A DNA stretch of 64,000 nucleotides from Cordylochernes scorpioides (Eukaryota; Arthropoda; Arachnida; Pseudoscorpiones; Chernetidae): positions 136,467,456-136,531,455 of the forward strand of contig CP092863.1 of NCBI GenBank assembly GCA_030710605.1, given 5' to 3'. Below are positions 7,200-58,589 of the stretch, piece by piece. The position numbers and the translations under genes are program-made. Each line of letters opens with the position of its first letter. Within the stretch, counting starts at the first letter, position 1. The notes under the pieces were generated by a model, which worked only from the letters and a program-made list of their open reading frames with translations, was not told where the DNA came from and made no database searches.

Positions 7200-7375
7200 T
7201 TACTCCGATATAAAGTCCGCCCTAGACTGACGAGGGCCATTAGCCCGAAACCATGGTCTCTAGGTGGACACTTCTCAGTTTGTCCAAGCTGGTGTTGTGA
7301 TTTTGTCACCGACCCGAGGCCGCTAGTTTTCGGAGACAGTTAATAGATAGCGTTTATTTATAGCGTCTATTTTGA
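7200..7375 (+). mobile_element. Hammerhead retroposon K, single arm
   Basis: Starts with a hammerhead ribozyme (7221-7264) and continues with ggtggacacttctcagtttg, tgttgtgattttgtcaccga and ends near gcgtctattttgatgg, matching either arm of the K foldback at 26426-26875. Confidence 0.8.
7221..7264 (+). ncRNA. Hammerhead ribozyme, complete minimal type I (family K)
   Basis: Stem I CCTAGA (7221-7226) pairs perfectly with TCTAGG (7259-7264). Between them: CTGACGA (7227-7233), stem-loop II GGGC-catta-GCCC (7234-7246), GAAA (7247-7250), stem III ACC/GGT closing a 2-base loop (7250-7257; ACCATGGT is a palindrome) and C17 at 7258 giving a GUC cleavage site. All invariant core positions are present. 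Predicted self-cleavage follows 7258. The short palindromic stem III is typical of small hammerheads of Penelope-like elements and retrozymes, which may work as dimers. Confidence 0.88.
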
Positions 7376-7432
7376 TGGAAGTAGTAACCTTTATTTTTAT
7401 TTTATACTTTATTTTATTTATTTTTTATTTTA

Positions 7433-7742
7433 TGGGGGGTCGGTGGAAGGCTGGTATAAACCGTTGGTTTTCGACTGCTACGACCCGGGTTCGATTCCCG
7501 CATTGGACACTTTTTTCTGATAAAAAAAAGAAAATGCTCCAATGTCTCCCTATTCTTGCAAAAGACCAACCTCACCAGCGAGTGCAAGTAACCAAACGGT
7601 ACTCTGGCATATTTATTTGTAAGTGCAAACTGCTTTTCACGTGTTTAGACATGTGGTGCACTTACAGTAAAAGCAGTCGCCCTCTACCCACCATGATTAT
7701 CATGGCCTGTACCATGTGTACTAGGGATAAGCAAAAAAAAAT
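7433..7742 (+). mobile_element. SINE-A, full length
   Basis: tRNA-like head ggtcggtggaaggctgg ... cgggttcgattcccgc (box B), then cagcgagtgcaagtaacc, a 3' body with acatgtggtgcacttacagt, ending ggataagcaaaaaaaa. One of at least nine copies in the window. Confidence 0.88.
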
Positions 7743-9046
7743 ATATATATATACTCCAGACAAAAATACCCGTCTTCTACTCCAATTAGATACACCTATT
7801 AAAGAACCGTTAAGTTTGAAAAAAACTCGTCTTTTAGCTCGTTATAATATAAAAAACAATCATATGTTGTTCTTTGACTTTTTATGTTATTTATGGCTAT
7901 ATTATATTTATGATATATTATAAAATATATTATTATTTAGAAAAATATTTTTTAAATAATTATTCAAAAGATGAGAATAAAAATGTATTCAATGTTTTAA
8001 AAGAGATATATTTCTCCATGAACCACTCATTATTTATTCACTTCTCGACGTTTCGATTACTCCCTGTTACCCTCTCCCCTTTAAAGGAAATTCTTACACA
8101 AACTCCTAACAAGCAAATGATATTTAAAATCACGAATTTGAGAATACAAATCCTTATATCTATAAAAATGGAATCCAAAATCGATGTTTGTTATCGCGTT
8201 GCGCAAAATCTACAGAATCAATCATTATGAAATTTCGCATGTAGGTAGCTGAAGATTTCGTTTAACATATAGGCTATTCAAAAAACTAAAAAAGTTATTG
8301 AGCTTTTTTTGAAAAATATAAAACCAAAAAGCGTTAGTTCCAGCCTTTTACCGCTTGGGTGCAGCACTGGTCGCGACGATAAATGAATTTGATTGGTTAA
8401 TAATTAACACGTGGTTTGTTTACACGATGAATGTTAGTTTGTTCACACGATGAATGTTTTTAAAAGATAAGGTTATTCAATCGCCGTAAAACTTCAGGAA
8501 GTTATTTACTATACTACTGGGAAGATTTTGCTTTGAATTCGATTTGAAATAAATATTCTTTGAAATTTTATTTACAAATCTTCTACTTTCACTCGCAAGC
8601 AGCGCCTCTCGCGGCATCTGGTGAAATTATATTTACAAATTGTAACAATGCTTAAAATGTGTTCCAAGTATAATAAATTTAATTAGAAATATAGTAATAT
8701 AATATTCCAAAGACGTTGTAGAAAAATTTGGCATCTCAATATTAATATATATTTAAAGAAAATATTGTAACGTTTTTGTGTTAAATGTTAAAATGTTGTA
8801 ATGTTAAAATATATTTTTACATTGTTAATTTAATTTGCTGTTGTTTTATAATAATGGAGATGCGAATTTAATTGTTGTTGTTGTTTTTTATCGTTTGTTT
8901 ATATAAAAAAATTACATTGTATGTGATGATGATAACAAAAATGAATTTTTAAAAATATATATATAATTCATTGAGAAAAAAAAGAAATAATTAATTATAA
9001 AATCAACAAACGTGACAATAGCTTGCATAATATAAATAGAAAATAT
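7743..9046. other. AT-rich spacer with one decayed foldback motif
   Basis: Mostly unassigned. Around 8045-8095 a cgacgtttcgatta motif resembles the GAAACGTCGAGA half of a Q-type hammerhead read on the minus strand; the rest shows no gene or repeat I can name. Confidence 0.5.
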
Positions 9047-9186
9047 TTAATCTTCGAAATTTGAACAAATACACTTATGTTGTTGTTGATTATTCTTCAA
9101 GTCGTTTAAACAATCTCCATTAGGTTCCATTGTCTCAGCTTTTCTATTATAGTCCTGGGGTTTTTCCAGAAATCCTTTTTTGGAGG

Positions 9187-9387
9187 ATTGTGGACAAAAT
9201 TTAAAGAAGTTGTACCTTTCAGCATGTATATCAGGATTCAGACAATAACTCTGAAAGATATTACAGTGACCTTTATTGAAGACACACGAGATAACCAAGT
9301 GCGAACAACCTCTGTCTCTTAAAAAAGAAAGGCGACCGGCGACATAAAAATATGAAAATTTCTTAAGTTTTATTCATGAGTGTATGT
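9187..9387 (-). mobile_element. MITE H, single internal unit
   Basis: One 111-bp internal unit (the same as in the arrays at 42033, 51849 and 61768) between ends related to cactcatggacaaaactta; the right end is attcatgagtgta. The short minus-strand frame beginning MVISCVFNKGHCN is the unit's reading frame, not a gene. Confidence 0.75.
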
Positions 9388-9734
9388 CTATATGGTATTA
9401 ATACTTCAAAAAAATCCCATATTTCATCCCTTGAGCGTCAAACAAAAAGTTCCAGAACTGCATTTATCAATTTGATGTTATTCTCGATGTGTCTTACGCG
9501 AGGGAAATGTATCATTGATCTGAAAATTTGATCGACCTGTGGAACAAGGTCTGGGGAGTAAGCTGGGTGGGGTAAAAACTAAATTCTTACCAAATTTCAT
9601 TAAGTATTAACCACGCCCTGTAAAGCAGAGTATAAGAGAGTAACCCCATTCGCTTTATTAGAAAACATTTTTGAAAAGTCGGTTGAACACACAGCCTTGC
9701 ACGGTCTGGCATTTAGGTTGTTGTTACAGGTTCC
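9388..9734. other. Unassigned spacer
   Basis: No gene or repeat recognised. Confidence 0.5.
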
Positions 9735-10205
9735 ACACATAATCCTGACACTGAAATCCAGACAGACCAAAATTCCCCTACAAGGACAAATCCTGATACA
9801 GCCCAAAATCTCGACAGGAACAAAATCCCAACAGACCAGAATCCCGACACCCTAAATTCTGACAACACAAATTCCCTACAGGGAAAAAAATCCCTACAGA
9901 CCAAAATATCGACACAGTCGAATTAGGAAAAATTCCAGCAAATAAAAGAATCACTGCAATCAGGAATCATTTCAGGACGAGTTGTATCCAGTCAATTTGA
10001 AAAAACACTGACTCTTTCAAATTCAGATTATAAGTCCGGTTCGCCCGATTTGATTGAGTATTTGTATAACATTTTTATTATTAATTTTATGATTTGTCGG
10101 GAAATTGGTCTATAGGGAATTTGGTTGTCGGGATTTTTGAGATGTTGAGATTTTGGCTGTTGAGATATTGAGATAACGGAATTTCCGCTGTGAGGATTTT
10201 GATTT
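9735..10205. repeat. Inverted pair of short-period degenerate repeats
   Basis: Left side 9735-9915 repeats variants of gacagaccaaaatcccgaca at roughly 20-25 bases; right side 10095-10205 repeats its complement (gtcgggatttt, ggtctatagggaa). Together they form an imperfect foldback around a 180-base centre. Confidence 0.65.
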
Positions 10206-10614
10206 GGATCCGTTTCACCACGACCTATTACGACTATTACCAGCTTTTAGTGATCAAGGAACGCAATTCTCAAAATATTATATGACAATGAAAAGGCGAT
10301 CACTACATTATATACCCGACAATGGACGATAACCTAGTTGACAAGAAAGACCTATGTGAGTGACTCAAGTGCACACACACGTGCGACAACTAGAAGTGCC
10401 ATGGCTTACCTACCGCCTAACAGCTCCTGACAGGAAGGATCGTCTGCACCCAAATTCAGACGAGTTAGCTGTACCGTCTACTGGATGGTCTAGGTATGTA
10501 CACGGGAACACGTTCACACAATAGATAAATCTCCCAATTCACACAATAGACATGGCTCAAACTACCACTCAATATAAACAGACCTATATACTGGTAAATT
10601 AATTTATAATACAA
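10206..10614. other. Unassigned spacer
   Basis: Slightly GC-richer stretch (10300-10500) without a coding frame I can support. Confidence 0.5.
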
Positions 10615-11160
10615 AATAATGCGGCTTATGATTGTAGAACGACATTTCAAAATTATCCCGCATGTGTTTCTTTTGGAACGAAAAAACTAAATTTATTTTA
10701 AGGAGAAATAACGATTATTTCTAATCTTAGGGATGATGTATGAAAGGATGAATTGTGAAGAGTAATGATTAGGTTAGAAATAATCGTTATTTCTCCTTAA
10801 AATAAATTTCGATTTTTTGTTCAAAAAGAAACACATGCCGGATAATTTTCAAATGTCGTTCTACAATCATAAACCGCATTATATTGTATTGCACATTACT
10901 TTGTATAATATTTACGAACAGAAAAATATGACCAGGGTAGCCTAGTGTACATGGCATCTGCCAGCTAAGTGGAACACTGTGAGTTCGATTCCCATCCCTG
11001 GACACTTTTATATTTCCGTTTATTATTACTCCTTACAATTCATCCTTTCATACTTCATAGCTAAGGTTAGAAATAATCGTTATTTCTCCTTAAAATATAT
11101 TTCGATTTTATCGTTCAAAAAGAAACACATGCGGGATAATTTTCAAATGTCTGTTCTATA
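10615..11160. mobile_element. SINE-B foldback plus an adjacent SINE-B copy
   Basis: 10615-10905 is an inverted pair of SINE-B tails (ggagaaataacgattatttc and its complement). 10930-11160 is a SINE-B with tRNA-like head (box B gagttcgattcccat) and the same tail ending gcgggataattttcaaatgt. Confidence 0.75.
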
Positions 11161-12038: not shown

Positions 12039-12053
12039 TACATGTCAATGCCG

Positions 12054-13828: not shown

Positions 13829-14403
13829 CAGTAGTAGAGCCTCCCTGTAAAGTACAACACCTAATTGCAGAGCCAAACTGTCCTTTAGGGAGAGATGTCT
13901 TCTTACCGGAGAGTTGCTAAATAGTAAAAATGGTAATTTTGCAAATGAAAACTATAGAGAGGTGTAAAACGAAAATTGCAATTATACCTCGAATGTTTCT
14001 TCTAAACAAAAATCGAAATTTATTTTAAAGAGAAATAGCGATTATTTCTAACTTTAAGGATGAAGTATGATAGGATGAATTTGTGAAGAGTAATGACAAA
14101 CGGAAAAATAAAAGTGTCCAGGGATGGGAATTGAACCCACAGTGTTCCGCTTACCGGGCAGATGCCATGTCCACACTTTTATTTTTTCCGTTTGTCATTG
14201 CTCTTCACAATTCATCCTATCGTACTTCATCCTTAAAGTTAGAAATAATCGCTATTTCTCTTTAAAATAAATTTCGATTTTTGTTTAGAAGAAACATTCG
14301 CGGTATAATTGCAATTTTCGTTTTACAATCATCAGCCGCGTTATATTGTATTTTATAGAGAGGTGTTCTCTAACGCAAATGTCCTCTCATAAAGATTCTA
14401 CTG
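13829..14403 (+). mobile_element. pogo-like MITE N, interrupted
   Basis: CAGTAGTAGAGCCTCCCTGT start and a matching end near 14403 agree with the uninterrupted copy at 28820-29179. A SINE-B foldback sits inside at 13966-14353. Confidence 0.75.
13966..14353. mobile_element. SINE-B foldback with 13-bp target duplication
   Basis: Flanked by TATAGAGAGGTGT at 13953-13965 and 14354-14366. Long arms are complementary; the tRNA-like head (complement of gtgtccaggga, 14116-14160) lies at the centre. A 13-bp duplication of variable sequence suggests insertion by target-primed reverse transcription. Confidence 0.8.
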
Positions 14404-14419: not shown

Positions 14420-14636
14420 GCCATCTCTATATATAAGGAATGGAAGCATTCAAAAATCACGGATGTTTCTTTTACACATAAATAAAAAAATCTACTGTTA
14501 TTTCTGCAATGAAAAAAATATATTGGGAGGGCTCGGCTCATCAGTGGGGAACCCTCCCAGCGGTTTCACCAATTTAATCTACCAGCCCACTTCTTAGAGC
14601 TCTAATACTGTATTGGATCATTCTGCTTATATATTC
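14420..14636 (-). mobile_element. Foldback family F'
   Basis: Minus-strand centre CTGATGAGCC (about 14530-14540) and GAAACCGCTGGGAGGG in the F order; terminal cgcgccatctctatata at 14409. Confidence 0.75.
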
Positions 14637-15779: not shown

Positions 15780-16165
15780 TCATGGACAAAATTTAAGGAA
15801 GTAGAAGTCTTTGATGTCGCCGGCCGTCTGTTTATTTAAAGAAGAGCACGAATGTTTCTTTTCCGCCTAAAACAAACTACTACTGTGCTTACTGCGATGG
15901 GACAATATTGAGGGGGGGCTTGGCTCATCAGTGGTGAACCCTCCTAGCGGTTTCCCCAGTTTAATCTACCAGATCGCTTCTTAGAGTTCTACTATTATAT
16001 TGGACGATTCTGCTTATATATCCGACATTGTAGGATGGAATCTTGGTTATGGTATTTTAAGCAAATTATGGATATAAGTTTCGAAGACAGTGGTAATTAC
16101 ATATACAAATACAAGGGCAGTTAGTCATAAATTAGACATAAGACAATAACGCGCCATCTATATTT
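15780..16165 (-). mobile_element. MITE H end followed by foldback F'
   Basis: 15780-15830 is one end of MITE H (catggacaaaatttaaggaagt ... gccggccgtct). 15835-16165 is an F' copy with minus-strand CTGATGAGCC near 15922 and the gcgccatctata terminus at 16151. Confidence 0.7.
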
Positions 16166-16848: not shown

Positions 16849-17100
16849 ATGCATTAGCGCGCCATCTGTTATCAAAATTCGAAACTATTATAAAGGCATA
16901 TGATTCTTTTAAAATAAAACAATTTCTACTGCCCTTACTGCAATGGGAAAATTAATGGGAAGGCCTGGCTCATCAGTGGTGAACCCTCCAGCGGTTTCGC
17001 CAGTTTAATCTACCATACCGCTGTTATATTGTATTTTTCCATCTTACTTTTATAGTGATACTGTTGCTAGACTCTTGGAATGGGTATTTTATATGAACTA
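16849..17100 (-). mobile_element. Foldback family F
   Basis: From tgatgcattagcgcgccatc through the minus-strand boxes CTGATGAGCC (about 16965-16976) and GGCGAAAC (about 16990) to ttggaatgggtattttat. Confidence 0.8.
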
Positions 17101-17195: not shown

Positions 17196-17400
17196 AGATA
17201 GAGGCTGCCTGGCCGGCATTCATATTTCATTGAAAAATAGATACTTCGGCCAGTTATAGTTTTTTATTTTTTCAACGTTTCGTCAAAAATCTTTTGTCTT
17301 CGTCAGTAGAATAATTATTTATTTCTCATGACGAAGACAGAAGATTTTTGTCGAAACGTTGAGAAAAGAAAAACTAGGTAACAAGACCAAATAAATAAAT
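17196..17400. mobile_element. Foldback Q with two opposed hammerhead motifs
   Basis: Minus-strand motif 17269-17311 has intact CTGACGA, stem II and GAAA but mismatched stem I. Plus-strand motif 17323-17365 has matched stem I TTCTC/GAGAA and GAAA-CGTT but C3 of the core is A. Arms share ggccagt and the aaatagatacttcgg phrase. Confidence 0.72.
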
Positions 17401-17528
17401 AGTGTGTGACGTTTCGGTAACAGCGTTGTTACCATCTTCAGACAAAAGTACTGATTATATACGACGCTGTTACCAAAACGTCACACACTATTTATTTATT
17501 TGGTCTTATTACCTTGTGTTTATAATCT
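17401..17528. mobile_element. Foldback D with hammerhead-like core
   Basis: Minus strand 17404-17446: CTGAAGA, stem II GGTAACA/TGTTACC, GAAA, CGTC. The opposite arm (17461-17490) has lost the first box and reads AAAA in place of GAAA. Stem I is only three pairs, so activity is doubtful. Confidence 0.65.
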
Positions 17529-17940: not shown

Positions 17941-18349
17941 AATCTATAATCTAAATTGTGCCTTATCATTGAGATAATAAAAAACTCTAACTGGCCGAAG
18001 TGTCTATTTTTCACAGAGAAATGTATAATATACTTAGAGAAACTGTGGATATAATTGCAGAAATACCAATAGAAATGCTGCGTTATAAGTATTGCTATGG
18101 CATGGCTATAGACTTACCCAACCCCGCCAGTTCTATTGATCGGTCTGCCATATAAAATATTAAAAGAGCACTATAGCTTATATGGCCATCGCGCAATATT
18201 GGGGAGCTGAATAAATATTGAAATCTCACACGTGGGAGAATTTTATAGCATCTCCCTCCCTTCTCTTCAATTAAATTCCAATTTTCATTTATTGACTGAA
18301 GCGCTGTTTGGTTGGAATTTATTTCTAGAATTAAGGAATACACATACAC

Positions 18350-19564: not shown

Positions 19565-19790
19565 TATAAACACAAGGTAATAAGACCAAATATCCAAATA
19601 AATAAATAGTGTGTGACGTTTCAGTAACAGCGTTGTTACAATCTTTAGACAAAAGTACTGAATGAGAAAAAAAAAAACATGCTGTGATATTTTTTTCTCA
19701 TTCAATACTTTTGTCTGATGATGGTAACAATACTGTTACCGAAACGTCTCACACTATTTATTTGGATTTGGACTTATTACCTTATGTTAT
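19565..19790. mobile_element. Foldback D
   Basis: Inverted arms with gtgtgtgacgtttcagtaac (left) and gttaccgaaacgtctcac (right) around aaacatgctgtgatatttttt. The right arm holds the ribozyme-like motif listed separately. Confidence 0.72.
19712..19752 (+). ncRNA. Hammerhead-like motif (family D)
   Basis: CTGATGA (19715-19721), stem-loop II with GGTAACA/TGTTACC (19723-19740), GAAA (19741-19744), then CGTC with a palindromic ACGT in place of stem III and a GUC site. Stem I is only about three pairs (TGT/TCA-ACA type), so this is a core without proven cleavage capacity. Confidence 0.6.
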
Positions 19791-20409: not shown

Positions 20410-20454
20410 TTGAAATATAGAGATAAAGTTCACCTCTCCCTTCAAGATAGACGC

Positions 20455-20585: not shown

Positions 20586-20673
20586 TAAAATTATCAAACT
20601 TGTTAAAATCATTAAGAAAATAGAAAAGGCATCGCCTTATCGTACAACTACAGATAGGCAAGTACAGCCTGCA

Positions 20674-20713
20674 CCACGCTGACGAGGGCCAACAGCTCGA
20701 AACGCGTATGTGG
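20674..20713 (+). ncRNA. Hammerhead ribozyme, intact core (J/L-like)
   Basis: Stem I CCACG (20674-20678) pairs with TGTGG (20709-20713, one G-T). CTGACGA (20679-20685); stem II GGGC-caaca-GCTC (20686-20698, one G-T); GAAA (20699-20702); stem III AC/GT around gc (palindrome ACGCGT) and A17 at 20708, a GUA site. The body downstream to about 20830 (tggcttttcttgatt...ggttggccaaatatc) matches J. Confidence 0.8.
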
Positions 20714-20837
20714 TTGGCTTTTCTTGATTAATCGAGAAAATGGGTTGGCCAAATATCAGGGAACAGACTAAACAACATTGAGTTGATTTCTGTATCTTTG
20801 GTATGTGTTGGGTCCCCATCAGAGTTTTGCAGGCTGT

Positions 20838-21520: not shown

Positions 21521-21524
21521 ATTG

Positions 21525-21760
21525 TAAAACGACATTTGAAAATTATCCCGCATGTGTTTCTTTTCAACGAAAAATCAAAATATTTTTCAAGGAGAAATAA
21601 CGATTATTTCTAACCTTATGGATGAGGTATGAAAAGATGAATTGTGAAGAGGGATGATTATTTCTCGTTGAAATAAATTTTGATTTTTCGTTTAAAAGAA
21701 ACACATGCGGGATTATTTTCAAATGTCGTTTTACAATCACAAACCGCATTATATTGTATT
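21525..21760. mobile_element. SINE-B tail foldback
   Basis: Inverted tails ggagaaataacgattatttc and tcaaatgtcgttttacaatc, without the tRNA-like head. Confidence 0.7.
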
Positions 21761-21764: not shown

Positions 21765-21955
21765 ATGATGCATTAGCGCGCCATCTGTTATCAAAATTCG
21801 AAACTATTATAGACACGTATGATTCTTTTTAAAAATAAACAATTTCTACTGCCCTTATTTCAATGGAAAAATTAATGGGAGGGCCTGGCTCATCAGTGGT
21901 GAACCCTCCCAGCAGTTTCGTCAGTTTAATCTACCATACCGCTGTATTTATTATT
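21765..21955 (-). mobile_element. Foldback family F, single arm
   Basis: From tgatgcattagcgcgccatc to ttaatctaccataccgctg with minus-strand CTGATGAGCC; the GAAA box is present as GACGAAAC. Confidence 0.75.
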
Positions 21956-23584: not shown

Positions 23585-24430
23585 ATATATATGGCGCGTT
23601 ATTGCTTTGTATTTATGTCTAACTTGTCCTTATTGTTTGCGGAAGAACATTGCTCGATTCAAATATTTGAATGTAATTCTACTGTCCTATAATCTTATGT
23701 CCATAGTTTACTTAAATACCATTTCTGAGATTTCACCCTTCAGTGTAACATATATAAGCAGAATGATCAAATACAGAATTAGATATCTAGAGAAGCGGTT
23801 TGGTAGATTAAATTGGCGAAACCGCTTGGAGGGTTCACCTCTGATGAGCCAAGCCCTCTTACGCTGTCATACATGTAAGTTTCTACATGGCAGGCTGTAA
23901 AGAAAATAGTTATATGCTATAATAATATATATAAATTTATATTATATATATAAGTTATGAATATTCAAAGCTATTAAAGACGCGTATGATTCTTTTGAAA
24001 ATTAAACAATTTCTACTGCCCTTACTGTAATGGAAAAATTAAATTGGTAGATTAAACTGGAGAAACAGCTGGGAGGTTTCACTACTGATGAGTCAGGCCC
24101 TCCCTTTACATTTGTTAGAATATTACACAGAGTAACAATGGCTATAGATGAGCTTGTGTTTGAAAAGGAACTTGTATATATATAATTATCGCTTTTGTTG
24201 TTTTCATGTAGACATATATACCAAGATTTGTTTTGTATAATTGCTATTAATAATAAATAATATGTAATGTTAAATTGGTTACGGATTCTTCCTTCTTACT
24301 TACTTTAATTACATAACACGTGTTTCAATTGCAGTAAAGACAGTGGATATTATTTAATTTTTTTAAAAAGAATCATACGCGTCTATAATAGTTTCGAATT
24401 TTGATAACAGATGGAGCGTTAATGCATCAT
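23585..24430. mobile_element. Two family F copies
   Basis: 23590-23875 is an F' copy (plus-strand CTGATGAGCC near 23846). 23970-24430 is an F foldback with both arms (cgcgtatgattctttt at about 23982 and its complement near 24372), centre CTGATGAGTCAGG and complement terminus tggagcgttaatgcatca. Confidence 0.75.
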
Positions 24431-25261: not shown

Positions 25262-25816
25262 TTTCTCATCCCTGGACACTTTATTTTTCCGTTCATCATT
25301 ACTCTTCACAATTCATCCTTTCATACTTCATCCCAACTCCGCCTTTGCCGGTCCCAAGCCCGGATAAAACAGGAGGAGGGGGAACAGTAACAAGATCGCT
25401 AAAAAACCTGGGTTCAGTGGCCCGGCTGATAGTACCCTGTAAGGGCTCCAGGATGAGTCTGTACTCCCATGTTAGGAGCAGCTGTACATGGCGTCTGTTC
25501 CTCATGTCAGAGGTGGCCATTTCTTTCGGAGCAAAGTTAGTGGCCTGCTACTGAGTAGTGCTCCCAGCCTTAATGACAAAGGCAATCTACTATACCCAGT
25601 CATGATGGTTGTCAAACAGACACCATCAAGGGTCAAAACTTGATACCCTAATATGATTGAGTGGAGATAAGAAAGAAGAAGATACTTCATCCCTAAGGTT
25701 AGAAATAATCGTTATTTCTCCTTAAAATAAATTTCGATTTTTCGTTCAAAAGAAACCCATGCGGGATAATTTTCAAATGTCGTTCTACAATCATTAGCCG
25801 CTTTATATTGTATTAT
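25262..25816 (+). mobile_element. SINE-B tail split by retroposon E
   Basis: Left piece 25262-25334 (cctggacactttatttttcc ... atacttcatccc) and right piece 25694-25816 (taaggttagaaataatcg ... ttatattgtatt) form one SINE-B body. Confidence 0.8.
25335..25681 (+). mobile_element. Retroposon E, full length, 12-bp target duplication
   Basis: Flanked by ATACTTCATCCC at 25323-25334 and 25682-25693. Begins aactccgcctttgccgg and ends ggagataagaaagaagaag. Nearly the same length as the copy at 994-1354, so the unit is defined at about 350 bp. Confidence 0.82.
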
Positions 25817-26425: not shown

Positions 26426-26875
26426 GAAGCAATGGTCGCCTCTCCCGTCAAAATAAACGTCAGAATCTGACGCCATCTATTGACCGTGGCCGCAACTAGC
26501 GGCATCGGGTCGGTGACAAAGCCACAACACCAACTTTGGCAAACTGATAAGCGTCCACCTAGAGATCATGGTTTCTGGCTAATGGCCCTCGTCAGTCTAG
26601 GGCGGACTTTATTCCATGAGATCCACACGGGATCTAATGGAATCCTCATAATCTACCAAAGAGGTGTTTTGCTGGTAATGTGCCCGAGGCAAGGTGTTTA
26701 GCCCGAAACCATGATCTCTAGGTGGACGCTTATCAGTTTGCCAAAGTTGGTGTTGTGGCTTTGTCACTGACTCGATGCCGCTAGTTGCGGCGACGGTCAA
26801 TAGATGGCGTCAGATTCTGACGTTTATTTTGACGGGAGAGGCGACCATTGCTTCCATGGATTAATTTCCTCCCGG
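26426..26875. mobile_element. Foldback K, both arms
   Basis: Arms run from the gacgggagaggcgaccattg end inwards: left 26426-26601, right 26690-26850, in opposite orientation. Left arm has a complete but damaged ribozyme (26558-26601, minus). The right arm begins inside the ribozyme (GCCCGAAACCATGATC, about 26701-26716), its first half replaced by unrelated sequence. Confidence 0.82.
26558..26601 (-). ncRNA. Hammerhead ribozyme, degenerate (family K)
   Basis: Stem I CCTAGA/TCTAGG and CTGACGA and GAAA are intact, but stem II has lost its core-proximal pair (GCCA instead of GCCC) and stem III reads CCATGATC, breaking one pair. Probably weak or inactive. Confidence 0.75.
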
Positions 26876-37429: not shown

Positions 37430-37840
37430 GTTTCTTATCCCCTTGTGTAAAGATTACATGAGTTCATGCTTCTCGAGCTGTTTTATGATGAGCAGCGGCC
37501 TCTCCCAAAGGTCCTGTTTAGTGCATCTATTGCAAGCCAAAATGTGTTCTGGAGCTGCAGGTACCAAACTACATTTTGGGCAAGTGGGATAAATTTTGTT
37601 GTTATTTTCTATCTTCAATGGCCTCAGATGGCCTGTTCTAAATCTTGTTAGTGTTGTTTGATGCTGTCTTTTTCTGATGTTCAGAGCTCCTCCTGGGTTC
37701 ACTCCACTGTACCAACTGTGCTTAGGTGGGATCCTCCAGTTCTTGTTTATTTTTGTTTTGGCTATTGTTTCTACTTCTTTAAAAGTAAGTTTATTTTTCT
37801 GTGGCAAGGTTTCTTTTGTGCCCCTTTTCGCTATTTGACT
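37430..37840 (-). pseudogene. LINE C-terminal fragment, RNase H end plus Cys/His motif
   Basis: Minus-strand frame reads IAKRGTKETLPQ at the start (like the conserved end of retroelement RNase H domains), then TTLTRFRTGHL, then YPTCPKCSLVPAAPEHILAC and a stop at 37454. The R-x-R-T-G-H-L and C-x2-C-x9-H-x3-C signatures are typical of Jockey/I-type LINEs that carry RNase H. Ends with a (caa)n tail near 37420. A 5'-truncated insertion. Confidence 0.78.
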
Positions 37841-37919: not shown

Positions 37920-38070
37920 TTTAACACCTTGCCAAATGTTTTATTTTATTTACTTCTCCTGACGAAGACAAAAGATTTTTGTCGAAACGTTGAGAAAATA
38001 AAAAACTCTAACTGGTCGAAGTATCTATTTTTAATAGAAATATGAATGCCAGCCAGGTAACCTTTATCTT
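37920..38070 (+). mobile_element. Foldback Q, single arm
   Basis: Starts with the ribozyme at 37954 and continues aaataaaaaactctaactgg ... tcgaagtatctatttttaat ... atgaatgccagccagg, the complement order of 17196-17290. Confidence 0.72.
37954..37996 (+). ncRNA. Hammerhead ribozyme (family Q)
   Basis: Stem I TTCTC (37954-37958) pairs perfectly with GAGAA (37992-37996). CTGACGA (37959-37965), stem II GACAAAA/TTTTGTC (37967-37983), GAAA (37984-37987), palindromic ACGT as stem III (37987-37990) and T17, a GUU site. Core invariant bases are intact; the loop-less stem III would need a dimer to form. Confidence 0.7.
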
Positions 38071-38324: not shown

Positions 38325-38720
38325 ATGCATTAGCGCGCCATCTGTTATTAAAATTCGAAACTATTTTAGACGCGTATGATTCTTTTTTGAAATTAAACAA
38401 TTTCCACTGCCCTTACTGCAATGGAAAAATTAATTGTATGTAATTCTACTGTCTTCAAAGCTTATGTCCATAGTTATCTAAAATATATCCATTCCAAGAG
38501 TCTAGCAACAGAGTATCACTATAAAAGTAAAATCGAAAAATGCAATATAACAGCGGTATGGTAGATTAAACTGGCGAAACCGCTGGGAGGGTTCACCACT
38601 GATGAGCCAGGCCCCCCATTAATTTTTCCATTGCAGTTAGGGCAGTATAAATTGTTTAATTCCAAGAAGAATCATACGCGTCTATAATAGTTTCGAATTA
38701 CTCAATATAATATATCTGAA
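38325..38720. mobile_element. Foldback family F, both arms
   Basis: Left arm tgatgcattagcgcgccatc ... actgcaatggaaaaatta (38325-38432); right arm in opposite orientation to 38700. The F core at 38571-38610 is the clearest in the window and is listed separately. Confidence 0.8.
38571..38610 (+). ncRNA. Permuted hammerhead-like core (family F representative)
   Basis: CTGGC (38571-38575), GAAA (38576-38579), a 19-base insert with possible small stems CC/GG and GGT/ACC (38580-38598), CTGATGA (38599-38605), GCCAG (38606-38610). CTGGC and GCCAG are perfectly complementary, giving stem II in an open, type II-like order. The expected U16.1 before the cleavage base is not evident, so it may be a decayed or non-cleaving version. 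Confidence 0.55.
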
Positions 38721-39399: not shown

Positions 39400-39625
39400 T
39401 TTCTAAGATTCCATCCTTCAGTGCAGCATATATAAGTGGAATGATCCAATACAGTATTAGAGCTCCAAAGAAGCGGTCTGGTAGATTAAATTGGTGAAAC
39501 CGCTGGGAGGGTTCACTACTGATAAACCAAGCCCTTCCAAATATTTTTCATCGCAGTAAGGACAGTAGAAGTTTGATTTATTTGTGAAAAGAAACATTCG
39601 CGTCTTAATGTTTTCATTCTCAGAT
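39400..39625 (+). mobile_element. Foldback family F'
   Basis: gtagattaaattggtgaaac then CTGATAAACCAAG near 39514 (second box damaged), followed by gcagtaaggacagtagaag and attcgcgtcttaatg. Confidence 0.72.
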
Positions 39626-41023: not shown

Positions 41024-41064
41024 CTGTAACAACACCCAAACATAGAAATTACACATTGTTTATT

Positions 41065-41357
41065 ATAGAACGACATTTGAAAATTATCCCGCATGTGTTT
41101 CTTTTGAACGAAAAATCGAAATTTATTTTAAGGAGAAATAACGATTATTTCTAACCTTAGGGATGAAGTATGAAAGGATGAATTGTGAAGAGTAATGATA
41201 AACGGAAAAATAAAAGTGTTCAGGGATGTTCCATATAAATAATCGTTATTTCTCCTTAAAATAAATTTCGATTTTTCGTTCAAAAGAAACACATGCGGTA
41301 TAATTTTCAAATGTCGTTCTATACAATTATAAGCCGCATTATATTGTATTATAAATT
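41065..41357. mobile_element. SINE-B foldback just upstream of the exon B acceptor
   Basis: Flanked by ACATTGTTTATT at 41053-41064 and 41358-41369. Inverted SINE-B tails with a head remnant (aaagtgttcaggga, about 41215-41228) at the centre. In transcript direction it ends about 40 bases before the exon B acceptor. Confidence 0.82.
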
Positions 41358-41529: not shown

Positions 41530-41790
41530 CACATATAATATATGATCCATTCCAAGAGTCTAGCAACAGTATCACTATAAAAGGAAGATCGAAAAATGCA
41601 ATATAACAGCGGTATGGTAGATTAAACTGGGGAAACCGCTGGCAGGGATTTACCACTGATGAGCCAGGCCCTCCCATTAATTTTTCCATTGTAGTAAGGG
41701 CAGTAGAAATTGTTTATTTTTCAAAAAGAATCTTACGCGTCTGAAATAGTTTCAAATTTTCATAACAGATGGCGCGCTAGTGTATCATAA
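41530..41790 (+). mobile_element. Foldback family F
   Basis: gatccattccaagagtctag ... gtagattaaactggggaaac ... CTGATGAGCC near 41655 ... gataacagatggcgcgctag. Confidence 0.78.
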
Positions 41791-42032: not shown

Positions 42033-42812
42033 TATACTCATAGACAAAACTTAAGGAAGTTGTACCTTTCAGCATGTATATCGGGATTCAGACAATAAAT
42101 CTGAAAGATATTACAGTGATCTGTATTGAAGACACACGAGATAACCAAGTGTGAACAAAACTTAAGGAAGTTGTACCTTTTAGCATGTATATCGGGATTC
42201 AGACAATAACTCTGAAAGATATTACAGTGACCTGTATTGAAGACACACGAGATAACCAAGTGTGAACAAAACTTAAGGAAGTTGTACTTTTTAGCATGTA
42301 TATCGGGATTCAGACAATAAATCTGAAAGATATTACAGTGATCTGTATTGAAGACACACGAGATAACCAAGTGTGAACAAAACTTAAGGAAGTTGTACCT
42401 TTTAGCATGTATATCGGGATTCAGACAATAACTCTGAAAGATATTACAGTGACCTGTATTGAAGACACACGAGATAACCAAGTGTGAACAAAACTTAAGG
42501 AAGTTGTACCTTTCAGCATGTATATCGGGATTCAGACAATAACTCTGAAAGATATTACAGTGACCTGTATTGAAGACACACGAGATAACCAAGTGTAAAC
42601 AAAACTTAAGGAAGTTGTACTTTTTAGCATGTATATCGGGATTCAGACAATAACTCTGAAAGATATTACAGTGACCTTTATTGAAGACATACGAGATAAC
42701 CAAGTATGAACAAAATTACCTCTCTCTCCTTAAAAAAAAAAAAAAAAAAAAATAGACGACCGGCGACATCAAATACTTTCAACTTCCTCAAATTTTGTCC
42801 ATGAGTGTAAAT
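42033..42812 (-). mobile_element. MITE H with six 111-bp internal units
   Basis: Ends are inverted (actcatagacaaaacttaag at left, cttcctcaaattttgtccat at right) next to TA. Six tandem 111-bp units (42040-42710), then an A-run and the gacgaccggcgacatcaaa block. Because 111 is divisible by three, one minus frame stays open for 221 codons. Confidence 0.85.
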
Positions 42813-45200: not shown

Positions 45201-45510
45201 GCTGTGGCCGGTTCCGTCTCTCTCCCTCTTTCTCTGGTTGTCTGGGTTTCTCTTCCAAATTGTGGTGTCCTTATTTATTTTTCCACCTTATTATTATACC
45301 ACATATAAATATTTAATTAGTATCTAAAGACATTTATTATCATTTCTTTTGCATTCTTGTAGAAGAACGGAAATGCCGAAAGCTTAAGAATTAACTAATA
45401 AATTACAAAAAAAAAAAAGTTTCTGAGTATAAGTTTCTTACTTTATTGAATTTTCTCTCAAATTTTCAGGTACTCTAAACCCTTCTACAGGAGTTTACAA
45501 CGTTTACTGG

Positions 45511-46234: not shown

Positions 46235-47522
46235 CAGTGTGGCAAATAATTTTTAAGAATGGGTTTGTAAAATAAAAAAGAAACAAGCTAATTCAATTTC
46301 TACTATTTTTTTATTCAAAATAATCCCCTCCGGATTCAATACATATGTTACAACGATTTAATAAGGAATTAAATGCCTCTTGCAGGCCACTTTGAGGAAT
46401 TGCCTCCAAAGTGCTCGTCGCAGCGGTCTGGATGGTCGGGATATCATAAAAAAAGCAACCTTTTAACTTCAATTTTATTTTTGGGAATAAATAAAAGTCA
46501 CATTGTGCTAAATCAGGCGAGTACGGAGGATGATTCAACACACAGACGTTATTTTTGGCCAAAAAGCGACGAACAGTGAGTGATGAGTGACTCGGTGCAT
46601 TATCATGCAGCAAACACCAACTGTCTTCATCGCGATATTCTGCACGAATGCGACGATTTCTAGCAATCAAACGTTTCAAAACGTTTAAATAATACTCTCC
46701 AGTAATGGTTTGTCCAGCGGGAACAAATTCTTTGTGGATAATACCTCTACTATCGAAAAAGGTAATCAGCATTGTTTTGATTTTTGATGGCACTTTTCGC
46801 GTTTTTTTGGCTTGTGGAGAGTTTTTTGACTTCTATTCGGCACTTTGGCGCTTTGTCTTTGGGTCATACTGAAAACACCATGTTTCATCACCCGTAACAA
46901 TTGATTTCAGGAAGTTTGAATTATTTTCATAGGCAGAAATGATGTCCCTGCAATGTGCAATTCACACTGATTTCTGCTCGCCCGTTAAAGTGTGTGGAAC
47001 AAATTTAGTACAGACTTTAGTTTTACCTAAATCTTCATGCAGAATGGTTCGAATCGTTTCTTTGTTGATGTGTAAAACCTCTGCCATCATTGTTTTCAAC
47101 AAATTCTCGCACTTTTTCTATACTTTCTGGTGTCTTTGAAGAACTTGGTCGTCCAGTATGCTTATCATCTTCTAGCGTATTTCTTCCATCCGAAAAACGT
47201 TTGTGCCAAATGAAAACATTTGATTTACTCAAACATAACGTACCATAAACTTGCTTCATCAAAATATATGTTTCCGATGCACTTCTACCAAGTTTTGCAT
47301 TAAATTTAATGACCGCTCTCTGTTCCATCTCAGAATTCCGACGAACAAAAATTTTTACTTTTCAAAAATCGCCTGTATGTTTTTAAAGAGTTAACCAAAA
47401 TGGCTGAAACAAAGCCACGCGCTAGATAAGGCTTCGAATATATATACGCATGCGCAATTTCATAACTGGCTCTGCTATTGGCCTTTATCTAGCGCGAGTC
47501 TTAAAAATTATTTGCCGCACTG
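46235..47522 (-). mobile_element. Complete mariner element, 1288 bp
   Basis: Terminal repeats CAGTGTGGCAAATAATTTTT at 46235 and the complement ending 47522 (one mismatch, GGC/GCC), flanked by TA at 46233-46234 and 47523-47524. Length is that of a standard mariner. The only open reading information is the inactivated transposase at 46311-47328. Confidence 0.95.
46311..47328 (-). pseudogene. mariner transposase, inactivated
   Basis: Nearly full length (~339 codons; family ~345). Start MEQRAVIKFNAKLG at 47328, N-terminal helix-turn-helix part with YGTLCLSKSNVFIWHKRFSDG. Catalytic D,D34D: D in VTGDETWC, D in LLHDNAPSH, and D in QCDFYLFP with exactly 34 residues between the last two; PPYSPDLAQCD is the mariner signature. 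Three lesions: a frameshift near 47085-47095 and in-frame stops after GEQKSV (about 46965) and after KRQSAE (about 46835). The C-terminal 160 codons (46311-46793) remain open. Confidence 0.93.
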
Positions 47523-47929: not shown

Positions 47930-48556
47930 TCAGACCTCCAGGGAAAAGTGTCTTTTCAAAACTTTTTTATTCTCTAGCTTTCAGGAACGAACGCCCTTCT
48001 ACAGGAGAAAACTTGGTATAATGTTATGAAAAAAGGCATCTCCTTATCGTGCAACTGAGAGTTACTTATGGCTTGCGCCATCTATCGGAATAAATATCAA
48101 CTATTCTCGTTGATTTTTAATTATTCCACAATTGACCAAATACCCATTCTTTATTAATAGAGAAAAGCTAACCACGGATGCGTTTTGGGCTGTTGGCCCT
48201 CATCAGCGTGGTGCAAGTTGTCCGTGTTTAGTAATCAAGAATGGGTATTTGACCAATTCTGGAATAATTAAAAAATCAACGAGAATAGGCTATATTTATT
48301 CCGATAGATGGCGCAAGCCATCAGAAACTTTCAGTTGCACGATAAGGAGATGCCTTTTTCATAATTATGCACCTTATCCCAGTACAATGTCACATTTGTA
48401 CTATATTTTCACATTGGATAATGATTTGACAATGATTTAACTCGTGTTCTATTGGTAAATTGTCATACCAAGTTTTCTTCCGAAGAAAGTCGCTCGTACC
48501 TGAAAGCTAGAGAATGAAAATGTTTTGAAAATACAATTTTCACTGAAAGCCTGATA
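47930..48556. mobile_element. Foldback X with foldback L inserted at its centre
   Basis: X arms 47930-48022 and 48462-48556 (gaaaacttggta / taccaagttttc inner ends) match the uninterrupted X at 55955-56108. L (48023-48420) fills the centre: left arm to 48213, right arm from 48229. X arms read CTGTAGA or decayed variants, a stem and GAAAGCTA with stem I TTCTC/GAGAA, i.e. a drifted hammerhead. Confidence 0.75.
48172..48213 (-). ncRNA. Hammerhead ribozyme, G12 mutated (family L)
   Basis: Minus strand: stem I ACCACG/CGTGGT is perfect (6 pairs), CTGATGA intact, stem II GGGC-caaca-GCCC perfect, but GAAA reads AAAA and stem III is CGCATC. Loss of G12 should abolish cleavage. Confidence 0.72.
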
Positions 48557-49034: not shown

Positions 49035-49545
49035 ATTTAACATAGTTATATTATGATGCATTAGCGCGCCATCTGTTATCAAAATTCGAAACTATTATAG
49101 ACGCGTATGATTCTTTTTAAAATAAACAATTTCTATTGCCCTTACTGCAATGAAAAAATTAATGGGAGGGACTGACTCATCAGTGGTGAACCCTCCCAGC
49201 GGTTTCGCCAGTTTAATCTACCATACCGCTGTTATATTGTATTTTTCAATATTCCTTTTATAGTGATACTGTCGCTAGACTCTTGGAATGGGTATTTTAT
49301 ATGAACTATGGACATAAGCCCTGAGGACAGTAGAATTACATATAATTATAAATATAACAGCGGTATGGTAGATTAAACTGGCGAAACCGCTGGGAGGGTT
49401 CACCACTGATGAGCCAGGCCCTCCCATTAATTTTTTCATTACAGTAAGGAGAGTAGAAATTGTTTTACGTTTTACGATTGTTTTACTCGTATTTTAAAAA
49501 GAATCATACGCGTCTGTAATAGTTTCGAATTTTAATATTTAGCAT
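49035..49545. mobile_element. Foldback family F, both arms
   Basis: Left arm from tgatgcattagcgcgccatc (49056) with minus-strand CTGATGAG core near 49175; right arm with plus-strand CTGGCGAAAC (about 49378) and CTGATGAGCCAGG (about 49405). Confidence 0.82.
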
Positions 49546-51848: not shown

Positions 51849-52620
51849 CTCATGGACAAAACTCAAGGAAGTTGTACCTTTTAACATGTATATCGGGATT
51901 CAGACAATAACTCTGAAAGATATTACAGTGACCATTATTGAAGACACACGAGATAACCAAGTGTGAACAAAACTTAAGTATGTTGTACCTTTTAGCATGT
52001 ATATCGGGATTGTGACAATAACTCTGAAATATATTACAGTGACCTTTATTGAAGACACACGAGATAACCAAGTGTGAACAAAACTTAAGGAAGTTGTACC
52101 TTTCAGCATGTATATCGGGATTCAGACAATAACTCTGAAATATATTACAGTGACCTTTATTGAAGACACACGAGATAACCAAGTGTGAACAAAACTTAAG
52201 TAAGTTGTACCTTTTAGCATGTATATCGGGATTGTGACAATAACTCTGAAATATATTACAGTGACCTTTATTGAAGACACACGAGATAACCAAGTGTGAA
52301 CAAAACTTAAGGAAGTTTTACCTTTCAGCATGTATATCGGGATTCAGACAATAACTCTGAAATATATTACAGTGACCTTTATTGAAGACACACGAGATAA
52401 CCAAGTGTGAACAAAACTTAAGGAAGTTGTACCTTTCATCATGTATATCGGGATTGTTACAATAACTCTGAAAGATATTACAGTGACCTTTATTGAAAAC
52501 ACACGAGATAACCAAATGTAAACAAAATTACCTCTGTCTCCTTCAAAAAAAGAAGAAAAAAAAAAGACGACCGACGACATCAAAAACTTTTACTTCCTTA
52601 AATTTTATCTATGAGTGTAT
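51849..52620 (-). mobile_element. MITE H with six 111-bp units
   Basis: actctcatggacaaaactca ... left end; units 51849-52510; gacgaccgacgacatcaaaa block; right end taaattttatctatgagtg. Part of arm 1; arm 2 has only three units. Confidence 0.85.
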
Positions 52621-55266: not shown

Positions 55267-55400
55267 ATTTGTAAGTACAAAAGTCGAACTGCTTCCTACA
55301 TGTATAATATATATGTTGTACTTACAGTATAGGCAGTCACTATCTACCCACTATGATTATCATAGCCTGTACTAAGTATACTAGCGCTAATACAAAAAAG
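55267..55400 (+). mobile_element. SINE-A, 3' part
   Basis: atttgtaagtacaaaagtcg ... tgttgtacttacagtatagg ... gcgctaatacaaaaaag; the 5' part is in the gap. Confidence 0.75.
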
Positions 55401-56108: not shown

Positions 56109-56269
56109 AAGTTCTCTGTTCTCGTTTTTTTTTCTCTCTCTTTCTCCTTCTTAATATCATATGACTATTCTTTACGGCCTAAAATTATTGTAAATAAATA
56201 TATATATATTTATTTAAGTAACCCAGGTTCCTGGAGCGTACAGAAGTCGCCAACTACCCGGGATGTCCT

Positions 56270-56545
56270 TCTGACCTAAGTCTTCTTGGATTTATATACA
56301 ATGCCAGTGGAGGTCCAATTAATGAGGTGTTGCCAGGCAGATTTCTTTCTTGGGAGATTTTCTAGGGATGCTGGACATATGTTGGTGATACCTAGGAGAG
56401 TGGCTGTCTGGAATCTTTGGTATTGGAAGGTTGGGCAAAAAGTGAAGAGGAGGTGGTCTACGGTTTGGTCTTCATCTTGGCAGTGGGGGCAAGTTGGGTC
56501 TTCTTTCGATACCGTTGCAAGGTCTGCCTGAATGTAACCATATAT
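56270..56545 (-). pseudogene. LINE C-terminal fragment with Cys/His motif
   Basis: Minus-strand frame: ADLATVSKEDPT, then CPHCQDEDQTVDHLLFTFC (C-x2-C-x8-H-x5-C), then LPRKKSAWQHLINWTSTG and a stop near 56272. Clear LINE ORF2 C-terminus; sister copy at 41815-42008. Shares the 3' ggtagttggcga segment. Confidence 0.78.
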
Positions 56546-57038
56546 ATATATAATTTGTTTGTTGTTAGATAAAGGGTTGATAAGACAAAGGATCGATAAG
56601 ATAAAGAGTTGAAGCTGCAGTCGTGATAAAAAAGATAATTATTTACCATCAAGCAGTTTTTAATTTCAATTACTTGGGGAAAGATTACACATTTGTTATT
56701 TTCACAATATATATAATTTATAAAGTTAATCCTATATTAGTGATTCAAAAAGATAGATATGTTAACTATGCATATTTACAACAAAACTGAAAGTCATTCT
56801 AAAAAACGATGATAAAAAGGTTGAGATTTCAGATTATAATATGTATAGACAATTGTAAAGGCATACATACATGTATGACAGCGCAAGTGTCCCTAGGGGG
56901 ACATAGCGCTATAAATTGAAATAAAAGTAAACAAAGACAAATGAGGTAATGAAAGTGAAATATGACAAAGAAAGATGTAATGAGGTAGAAAGAGACAAAT
57001 AGAACTACCACAGATGTGTCAGCATAAACATATGACAA
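56546..57038. other. Spacer with a LINE 3' hairpin
   Basis: At 56862-56915 aaggcatacatacatgtatg ... gtgtccctaggggga matches the 3' end of the LINE at 48655. The rest is not assigned. Confidence 0.45.
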
Positions 57039-57221
57039 ATGTGTCTTTCCACGCATGCGCTGAGAAACAATCCAATAAACAAATATATTATAGAAGCCGA
57101 GAGACGTCGTCTGACACCATGTATTGCTGTTTTAAAATGGATTGGCAGATTTTCTACATTGTATCCAATAAATTTGGTTGAATCAGCTGCTGGATTTGTC
57201 TTCTGCCTTCTCAAACAATGA
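57039..57221 (+). other. Short coding-like frame, unknown
   Basis: Encodes INKYIIEAERRRLTPCIAV and LKWIGRFSTLYPINLVESA-type sequence, with normal-looking amino-acid use but no motif I know. It may be another transposon fragment; it ends where an F copy begins. Confidence 0.3.
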
Positions 57222-57670
57222 AAATTCGAAACTATTATAGACGTGTATGATTCTTTTTAAACTTAAACAATTTCTACTGCCCCCCTTACTGCAATGAAAA
57301 ATTAATGAAAGGGCCTGGCTCATCAATGGTGACCCCTACTAGCGGTTTCGACAGTTTAATCTCCCATTATGACATTGACAATGTCATAAATACCTGTTTA
57401 TAACCCTTAAATTGGTAATAAAATATTGTAGCGGAAAAGAACAAGTTTTGTATATCTTAAGATATGAAAGTATTTAATACAATATGATACATTAGCACGC
57501 CCCCCCCCCCCATTTGTAATGAGAATTTTAAACTATTATAGACGTGTATATTTGATTCTTTTACAAATTAAACAATTTATACTGCCCTTACTGCAATAAA
57601 AAAATTAATTGGAGGGCCTGGCTCATCAGTGGTGAACCCTCCCAGCGGTTTCGCCAGTTTAATCTACCAT
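57222..57670 (-). mobile_element. Two family F single arms in series
   Basis: Cores on the minus strand near 57320 (TTGATGAGCC, damaged) and 57625 (CTGATGAGCC); both with gactgt/gtatgattcttt arms. The second has a C-run gcccccccccc replacing the usual gcgcgcc. Confidence 0.75.
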
Positions 57671-58040
57671 TATCACATTAACAATGTCATGAAGATTTGT
57701 TTATTACCTTTAAAATGATAATTAAAATAGTTTGGATTTATATTCTTCAAAATGTGTTGATAATATTTAATATGGTTATATATGGTTTTGACCAAGGACT
57801 TGATTGTTGTTGTGTGATGTGATCAATATATAGCGTGAGATGTTTTTAGTTCTTATAATAATTCTGTAATAATATTATACAAATATATAACAGTAGCATA
57901 CAATCTCTCTTTAATAGAAACTACACTACCTAAGTTTATTGAATATTAGGTAGAAAGAGTACATAACAATCTTATTATTACTAATCTGATAAGATGATAA
58001 CCATGTTTTTATTTTTATTAATCGATATAACATTTTTTTA
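57671..58040. other. AT-rich spacer
   Basis: Nothing recognised. Confidence 0.5.
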
Positions 58041-58140
58041 TATATTTGAAAGAAACCGCTGGGAGGGTTCACCACTGATGAGTCATACCCTCCCTCTTTC
58101 AATTTTCAATCATCACAGTATAAGGGCTGTAGATATAATT
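58041..58140 (+). mobile_element. Family F fragment
   Basis: gaaaccgctgggagggttca and CTGATGAGTCATACC; only the centre is retained. Confidence 0.7.
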
Positions 58141-58291
58141 ATATTAAAAATAAAGAAGGCATATCCTGACCACAAGCACATGTGCTTTTTAGATGACAGA
58201 GCGCCATCTAGTGGTGGAAAAATAAACTAAACGTTTATTTAGCTTATGATATTTGGTCAACCCAATTTCTTGATAAATCAAGAAAAGCCAT

Positions 58292-58331
58292 CCATGAACG
58301 CGTTTCGCGCTGTTGGCGCTCGTCAGCGTGG
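58292..58331 (-). ncRNA. Hammerhead ribozyme (J, left arm)
   Basis: Minus strand: CCACG (stem I), CTGACGA, stem II GCGC-caaca-GCGC, GAAA, palindromic ACGCGT stem III, T17, then CATGG with one mismatch to stem I. Core intact; stem I weakened. Confidence 0.75.
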
Positions 58332-58365
58332 AGTAGGCTATAACCACTGCGCCCAAAAAGATATT

Positions 58366-58405
58366 CCTCGCTGACGAGCGCCAACAGCGCGAAACGCATT
58401 CGTGG
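58366..58405 (+). ncRNA. Hammerhead ribozyme (J, right arm)
   Basis: CCTCG (stem I, 58366-58370), CTGACGA (58371-58377), stem II GCGC/GCGC, GAAA (58391-58394), CGCATT and CGTGG (58401-58405). One stem I mismatch and a broken stem III pair. Confidence 0.7.
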
Positions 58406-58589
58406 ATGGCTTTTCTTGATTTATCAAGAAATTGGGTTGGCCAAATATCACAAGCTAAATAAACGTTTAGTTTATTTTTTCTCCACTAGATGGCGCTCTG
58501 TCATCTAAAAAGTACATGTGTTCCTGGTCAGAATATGCCTTCTTTATTTTTAATATAATTTTATATATATAGATTTTTTTAATTTGAAA

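Follow-up and report, generated by a model that had tools for sequence, protein, structure and literature searches.

A predicted type-SGC hammerhead ribozyme in a tandem and head-to-head repeat family of the pseudoscorpion Cordylochernes scorpioides

Main

A 64-kb stretch of genomic DNA from the pseudoscorpion Cordylochernes scorpioides (the window; positions 136467456-136531455 of a contig in a 2.62-Gb, 24-contig assembly, which was also used for the genome searches) contains about twenty copies of a TGGGAGGGTTCACCACTGATGAGCCAGGCCCTCCC repeat family, here called G, that carries a non-circularly permuted, type-SGC hammerhead with a helix linking stems I and II and a predicted cleavage site. 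G is the commonest CTGATGA family of the window, and it is absent from the coordinates given in a first-pass annotation, which had described a range of hammerhead-bearing retroposons at this locus. With a probability of roughly three in four, we read G as a non-autonomous retroposon mobilised by Penelope-type enzymes, retrozyme-like in its tandem form, whose RNA contains the type-SGC hammerhead.

All three hammerhead strands are present in G in the order site, GAAA and CUGANGA (S-G-C), with AGCGGU A / UGGU at the site, CUGGC GAA ACCGCU in the GAAA block and ACCA CUGAUGA GCCAG in the CUGANGA block, which is closed by a 7-bp helix IV (GGGAGGG/CCCUCCC) that connects stems I and II at their far sides. 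Scanning the window for hammerheads in any strand order recovered four G copies (stems I/II/III of 4/5-6/7 bp) together with one copy each of the families K and D described below, and none of 100 controls passed. At a score of at least 16, a set of 1200 controls yielded two SGC matches and six of any order, G itself scoring 16-17; the reversed window gave one match, of another order, with a score of 10. When the letters are ignored, 99 nt of G permit only three three-stem geometries with at least 4 bp in each stem, one of which falls exactly on CTGATGA, GAA and TA. Across 19 window copies, some of them truncated, 91.5% of 342 cells are paired, compared with 35-55% when the strands are slid against each other, and four pairs are changed on both sides, a number that 25 of 500 shuffles also reached, with 1.7 such pairs per shuffle on average. 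An Rfam search with one G copy returned no ribozyme family and a single weak long non-coding RNA match, and exact-pattern scans gave no matches in viral contigs or in prokaryote genome contigs.

Genome searches gave 671 first-look candidates for the G query and 1,856 for a query of its subfamily Gb, two sets that may overlap; copies sit on many contigs, and the best 40 of each were scored. Stretches fetched from the genome were numbered as loci (L009-L050, L058, L071 and so on), overlapping loci being able to repeat one place. Scanned in any strand order, the 42 loci L009-L050 gave 37 SGC matches in 25 loci, along with one K and one match of another order. The fetched loci and the window together supplied 121 full G copies, of which 88 were distinct and 87 were aligned (alignment A2) after one with a long poly-A insertion was left out. 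Because loci were chosen by similarity to the queries, fractions among the 87 copies are not representative of the whole family.

In this alignment, 93.6% of 1,905 cells are paired, as against 34-56% with the partner strand slid by 1-3 columns, and pairing is high in every helix (stem I 97.1%, stem II 92.0%, stem III 93.8% and helix IV 92.6%). Cells changed on both sides number 55 versus 24.3 (sd 3.5) in shuffles, none of 500 shuffles reaching as high; stem II shows the exchanges U-A/C-G and C-G/U-A, helix IV shows G-C/A-U and has two double-changed pairs, and stem I has one exchange. At position 17, 51 copies have C, 33 have A, one has T and one has G. The core is intact in 49 of the 87 copies, the other 38 being decayed or carrying a G8A change; 25 combine an intact core with all stem I-III pairs, and 24 also have helix IV with at most one mismatch. 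Many G8A copies belong to one Gb lineage, which has apparently spread although its ribozyme should be dead.

Arrangement and insertion of family G

Family G occurs both as direct tandems and as head-to-head inverted pairs. Tandems of 371-373-nt units with one ribozyme each, involving both subfamilies, were found at L034/L048, L023/L049, L050 and L071, the last with five G ribozymes in a row. No long open reading frame is present, the longest open stretch in the doubled L071 stretch being 93 codons. Head-to-head pairs number 25 in L009-L046 plus the window, with 3′ ends outward and 5′ ends inward and variable, and tail-to-tail pairs number two. The 3′ ends form two groups separated by about 34 nt, here called tailed and tail-less. 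Leaving out six of the 25 pairs for an unclassified end gives 19 classified pairs; in 18 of them a tailed arm is joined with a tail-less one, and in the remaining pair both arms are tailed.

The pairs often lie between short target duplications: their duplication score averages 7.5, compared with 5.1 for shuffled partners (maximum 6.0 of 300), a duplication of 8-13 bp (score of at least 8) is found in nine of 19, and exact duplications of 11-13 bp flank four of 19 (L010, L013, L020 and L031). Some 5′ ends of inserts also lie near the predicted cut. Among 14 independent truncated G 5′ ends in the window, obtained by reducing duplicated or uncertain ends by eye, four lie within 1 base of it (binomial P 0.0009); among 26 ends of head-to-head pairs from the genome that lie at or upstream of the site, a sample that includes two of those window cases and six ends at the reference start, which are limits rather than true ends, seven fall within 4 bases of the cut (P 0.0003). 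A copy of family D at 2346 likewise starts within 3 bases of its own predicted cut.

Decayed copies of an element encoding a GIY-YIG endonuclease and a reverse transcriptase (RT) adjoin the tandem array at L034/L048 (L047:3981-6047 and L048:672-2888, both on the minus strand). The GIY-YIG domain (7.8e-07 in L048) lies upstream of the RT domain RVT_1 (7.5e-08 in L048 and 7.6e-09 in L047). Craig et al. are said to have described in 2021 a permuted Penelope clade, which the endonuclease-first order here resembles. Such an enzyme is available in this genome and may be what moves G; a partial search found no autonomous Penelope element ending in G. The proposal in the first-pass annotation of a link to Penelope-like elements gains support for G from the head-to-head inserts, the single tailed arm, the target duplications and the presence of a GIY-YIG/RT element. 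As described in the literature, Penelope elements have an inverted pseudo-long terminal repeat (pseudo-LTR), an optional 31-bp tail on one inverted pseudo-LTR, head-to-head as their most frequent arrangement, and target duplications of 8-10 bp in some copies and none in others (PMC3846280). RT can start at two sites, the 30-40 bp separating them forming the tail, and the target is cut and extended on both of its strands (PMC11167929).

Other ribozymes and repeats of the window

The first-pass annotation had listed 11 positions as carrying CTGANGA, a complementary stem II, GAAA and a palindromic stem III, and this observation was partly confirmed. Exact CTGANGA stands at ten of the 11 (the arm at 17323 reads ATGACGA) and GAAA at ten (AAAA at 48172/48206); paired stems II are present, and the stems III are short palindromes (ACCATGGT, ACGCGT, ACGT). 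As hammerheads, four of the 11 (7227, 20679, 37959 and, on the minus strand, 17441) pass a descriptor demanding an exact core, stems I-III, a UH site and at most one extra base after the core, several other copies having damaged cores or stems. That descriptor had no matches in 12 Markov controls, and with one core mismatch allowed it gave nine matches in the window versus a control mean of 0.5; a stricter type I scan gave two (7227 and 20679) versus 0.02 per window on average in 100 controls. The motifs thus exceed chance. Of the two computational outcomes that the first-pass annotation had named as refuting it, one was not observed, shuffled sequence not holding as many motifs, and one was, no Rfam hammerhead covariance model reaching its gathering score in the window. 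Below gathering, Hammerhead_HH9 scored 24.2 and 22.1 bits at 58.3 kb and 15.9 bits at 20663, and Hammerhead_1 scored 10.9 bits at 37953 (family J), while family K at 7221 had no Rfam hammerhead match even below gathering. Nested minimum-energy folds of the K and D segments alone were no better than shuffles (z of 0.09 and -0.58).

The broader interpretation of the first-pass annotation was partly supported: several hammerhead families do share this locus, with type I cores in K (7227 and, minus strand, 26595) and D (20679, 58371 and, minus strand, 48206 and 58326) and minimal Penelope-type cores in J and Q (Table 1). The full type I arrangement (CUGANGA, GAAA, GUH and three stems in the order C-G-S) is found at 7227 and 20679, the remaining listed K and D copies carrying mismatches. 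The better K and D copies have a palindromic stem III, ACCATGGT or ACGCGT, and D stem II differs between loci (GGGC/GCCC versus GCGC/GCGC). The K unit of about 172 nt gave 1,820 first-look candidates in the genome; among the best 40, which were scored, 39 besides the query had 88-93% identity, most over nearly the same 172 nt, and a further intact K ribozyme lies in L021. J and Q have the minimal GAAACGUH form with one extra base between CUGANGA and stem II.

Three candidates were set aside. The hammerhead reading of a foldback copy at 14335 is at chance level for its setting (six matches versus a control mean of 0.83), a K copy at 20442 that seemed to begin at its cleavage site proved to be a gapped alignment artefact running through its partner's CGCCATCT, and a J copy at 17969 beginning near its cut was ambiguous. 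The claim in the first-pass annotation of four further, decayed families (S, T, W and X), given without coordinates, was sampled. A CTGTAGA repeat family at 45490 and 48004 (both minus) has the layout CTC-CTGTAGA-AGG..CCT-GAAA-..-GAG, hammerhead-like with a changed core.

The first-pass annotation had traced most foldback elements to hammerhead retroposons. Similarity to such families was detected in 16 of the 25 longest among 55 inverted repeats and not in the other nine, and some of the matching arms hold only the 3′ part of a D-type element and lack the ribozyme. A AGATGGCG motif, occurring 23 times versus 0.57 expected, is common to the 3′ parts of K, D and G and hints at a shared replication signal. 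It opens a frame of at least 18 codons in K and D that closes after three codons in seven G copies, so its reading as a start codon is kept as a lead only.

The window also contains two retroelements with truncated type-P1 twisters at their 5′ ends, which the first-pass annotation had not listed. The element at 25335 begins at the point where the aligned twister would be expected to cut. Truncated twisters are described at the 5′ ends of RTE elements (PMC7761336), which fits the 25335-25681 element.

Another foldback family, which has GCGG..CCGC with GTAAAACGA and showed no link to hammerheads here, occupies 10596-10902, 13963-14327, 21521-21737 and 41064-41323, the loop of the 13963-14327 copy holding a piece of a transfer RNA-like short interspersed element. 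A minisatellite translating as a repeated HLVISCVFNKGHCNIFQSYCLNPDIHA stretch lies at 42038-42703, 51850-52293 and 61851-62207. Mariner transposase pieces lie at 46314-46832 and 47038-47361 (both minus), C. scorpioides copies being the closest among named relatives of the first (up to 91%). The open stretch 37457-37840 has six relatives (E values up to 0.001), all from C. scorpioides; the window is animal DNA. Rfam microRNA matches in the window were read as hairpin artefacts of long inverted repeats.

Table 1. Ribozyme-bearing and related elements of the window (positions counted from its first letter).
Feature	Position	Strand	Remarks	Evidence
Type-SGC hammerhead, G	49359..49425	+	Intact; predicted cut 49365/49366; stems I/II/III 4/5/7 bp; core CTGATGA, GAAA; helix IV GGGAGGG/CCCTCCC	
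Type-SGC hammerhead, G	49164..49230	-	Head-to-head partner of the 49359 copy; tailed arm ends at 49049	
Type-SGC hammerhead, G	38552..38617	+	Helix IV one base short; tail-less arm of a head-to-head pair	
Type-SGC hammerhead, G	16957..17022	-	Helix IV one base short; single tailed copy	
G copy	41608..41675	+	Mismatches in stem II and helix IV	
G copy	21877..21943	-	Stem II mismatch	
G copy, subfamily Gb	39472..39538	+	Compensatory stem II TTGGT/ACCAA; core CTGATAA	
G copy, subfamily Gb	23794..23858	+	Stem II TTGGC/GCCAA; one stem I mismatch	
G copy, subfamily Gb	14525..14591	-	Decayed	
G copy, subfamily Gb	15912..15978	-	Decayed	
Whole head-to-head G insert	49049..49537		Tailed minus arm, tail-less plus arm; imperfect target duplication TTTARCATAGT (10/11)	
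Head-to-head G insert	58581..58845		One arm starts no more than about 2 nt from predicted cut; flanks are poly-T, without a clear target duplication	
Type I hammerhead, K	7215..7269	+	In unit at about 7210-7381 (about 172 nt)	Descriptor scans, genome search
Hammerhead, K	26553..26607	-	Mismatches in stems II and III; within foldback	
Type I hammerhead, D	20667..20718	+	Intact	Descriptor scans, Rfam
Type I hammerhead, D	48167..48218	-	GAAA changed to AAAA	
Type I hammerhead, D	58287..58338	-	One stem I mismatch; stem II GCGC/GCGC	
Type I hammerhead, D	58359..58410	+	Opposite arm of the 58287..58338 foldback; one stem I mismatch	
Minimal (Penelope-type) hammerhead, J	37954..37996	+	Stem III ACGT	
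Minimal hammerhead, J	17269..17311	-	Damaged stem II	
Minimal hammerhead, Q	17403..17444	-		
Minimal hammerhead, Q	19712..19752	+	Weak stem I	
AGATGGCG sites, examples	2442, 26802, 40371, 41767, 48306, 58488			
Retroelement with truncated type-P1 twister at 5′ end	25335..25681	+	Exact 12-bp target duplication on both sides	53.1 bits, gathering 67.2
Retroelement with truncated type-P1 twister at 5′ end	1354-997	-		31.3 bits, below gathering

Discussion

We propose that a tandem G transcript would cut itself once per 371-373-nt unit, after ACAGCGGUA and before UGGUAG, and that the released RNA may circularise. A Penelope-type RT/GIY-YIG endonuclease, presumably supplied in trans, would then copy this RNA at both ends of a broken target, with reverse transcription starting from either of two sites 34 nt apart; two such starts would give inserts paired head-to-head in which a single arm is tailed, and short target duplications would often flank them. 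Families K and D, with type I hammerheads, and J and Q, with minimal ones, probably move in a related way.

Several observations weigh against this reading of G. On the side of insertion, ten of the 19 pairs lack a clear target duplication, and two G ribozymes in L058 are spaced 598 nt apart instead of 371-373. Where the 5′ end of an insert lies near the cut, 2-4 additional bases are often present, in several cases matching GGTA, so that the agreement with the cut is close rather than base-exact; an RT stop at the 3′ edge of the ribozyme, suggested by five of the 14 window ends, was not repeated in the genome sample and was dropped. On the side of the ribozyme, 23 of the 87 copies have A at the G8 position (CTGATAA; column 63 of the alignment), a change that probably inactivates it, so copying may not need cleavage, and hammerhead mutants of an anole Penelope element still inserted in vitro. 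Stem I of G has 4 bp and its I-II linker about 8 nt, as against 5 bp and typically 3 nt in the published HRIMA-1 form (PMC10085705).

The best-surviving alternative, which we nevertheless regard as unlikely, is that the copying of G is done by another retrotransposon, such as an RTE-type long interspersed nuclear element, instead of a Penelope-like element. G shares the window with elements that bear twisters, one of which has a 12-bp target duplication, and the partial search described above yielded no G-ended autonomous Penelope element. Head-to-head arms with one tail are, however, described for Penelope, and the tail signature is called unique to these elements (PMC3846280, PMC11167929).

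We consider it less probable still that G is a foldback element without any ribozyme, whose two conserved hairpins (AGCGGU/ACCGCU and GGGAGGG/CCCUCCC) fit the S-G-C pattern by coincidence. Nested folding of G, a method that cannot show pseudoknots, gives essentially these two hairpins as separate structures, and the covariation rests on few independent events, mainly the two stem II pairs that separate the subfamilies; counted as pairs, the five double changes are not above shuffles (mean 4.6). Against the coincidence, stems I and II, which in the hairpin view would be loop-loop pairs, are paired as fully as given above and hold three of those five pairs, one of only three possible three-stem geometries sits on the exact core, and all but one of 86 copies have A, C or T at position 17.

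Least probable is that the foldbacks are derivatives of DNA transposons (miniature inverted-repeat transposable elements) merely holding old hammerhead fragments: mariner-type transposase pieces lie in the window and nine of the 25 longest inverted repeats resemble none of the tested hammerhead families, but G arms have two preferred 3′ points, variable 5′ ends and one tailed arm in nearly all classified pairs, and G is also found as direct tandems.

Returning to a Penelope-mobilised G, the stronger statement is that active hammerheads of the non-circularly permuted kind are encoded in bulk by an animal genome, where they process a 371-373-nt retrozyme moved in this way; on the sequence evidence this seems to us slightly better than an even bet. 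If true, such genomic elements would be a natural home, and possibly a source, of the type-SGC ribozymes of viroid-like circular RNAs. Type SGC was described in 2023 and its origin is open; a sequenced animal with many copies would supply a host and a genetic vehicle, along with a system for testing. A topologically different hammerhead would then be seen to serve a retroposon in the same role, at a locus that also holds type I and twister elements, and the combination of tailed and tail-less arms with shared target duplications would be genomic evidence for Penelope-type insertion of a non-coding RNA.

The type-SGC, non-circularly permuted hammerhead (HRIMA-1 and a variant) was described by Eckert et al. 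in 2023 (PMC10085705), with 583 sequences, almost all motifs being found only in metatranscriptomes; apart from one type-GCS candidate, that paper in its available part reports no such RNA from any known organism's genome. Among the full texts searched, a set outside which most subscription papers and preprints fall, the terms HRIMA-1 and SGC hammerhead occur only in that paper and no later report of a genomic type-SGC hammerhead was found. Mutations show that the fourth helix is needed, a few members have zero bases between stem III and this helix, and the variants differ in stem I sequence (PMC10085705). G shares with this class the S-G-C order, the full core, stems I-III, the helix that connects stems I and II on their other sides, and the zero-length link from stem III to that helix. 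It differs in that it sits in the genomic DNA of an animal, in retroposons found both interspersed and in tandem.

The companion families correspond to forms already known from animals. K and D resemble the amphibian and invertebrate type I form with a short stem III and a palindromic loop (PMC7229834, PMC7761336), and J and Q the minimal GAAACGUH form of Penelope elements (PMC7761336), from which they differ by the one extra base after CUGANGA; Rfam models score these type I and minimal hammerheads below gathering or not at all.

In its tandem form, G is like the metazoan non-LTR retrozymes (PMC7229834), with units of a few hundred bp, no long open reading frame and one hammerhead per unit; retrozyme tandems consist of units of about 150-450 bp, every one holding a hammerhead, a description that G fits, and metazoan retrozyme RNAs measure about 170-400 nt (PMC7229834). 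Unlike them, it carries a type SGC hammerhead in place of the published type I. As an insert, G is like Penelope-like elements in its head-to-head arms, the optional 30-40 bp tail on one of them, the short target duplications and the hammerhead within the repeat (PMC3846280, PMC11167929). It differs from these elements in encoding neither an RT nor an endonuclease, and in carrying a type SGC hammerhead where the published Penelope hammerheads are of the minimal type I (PMC7761336).

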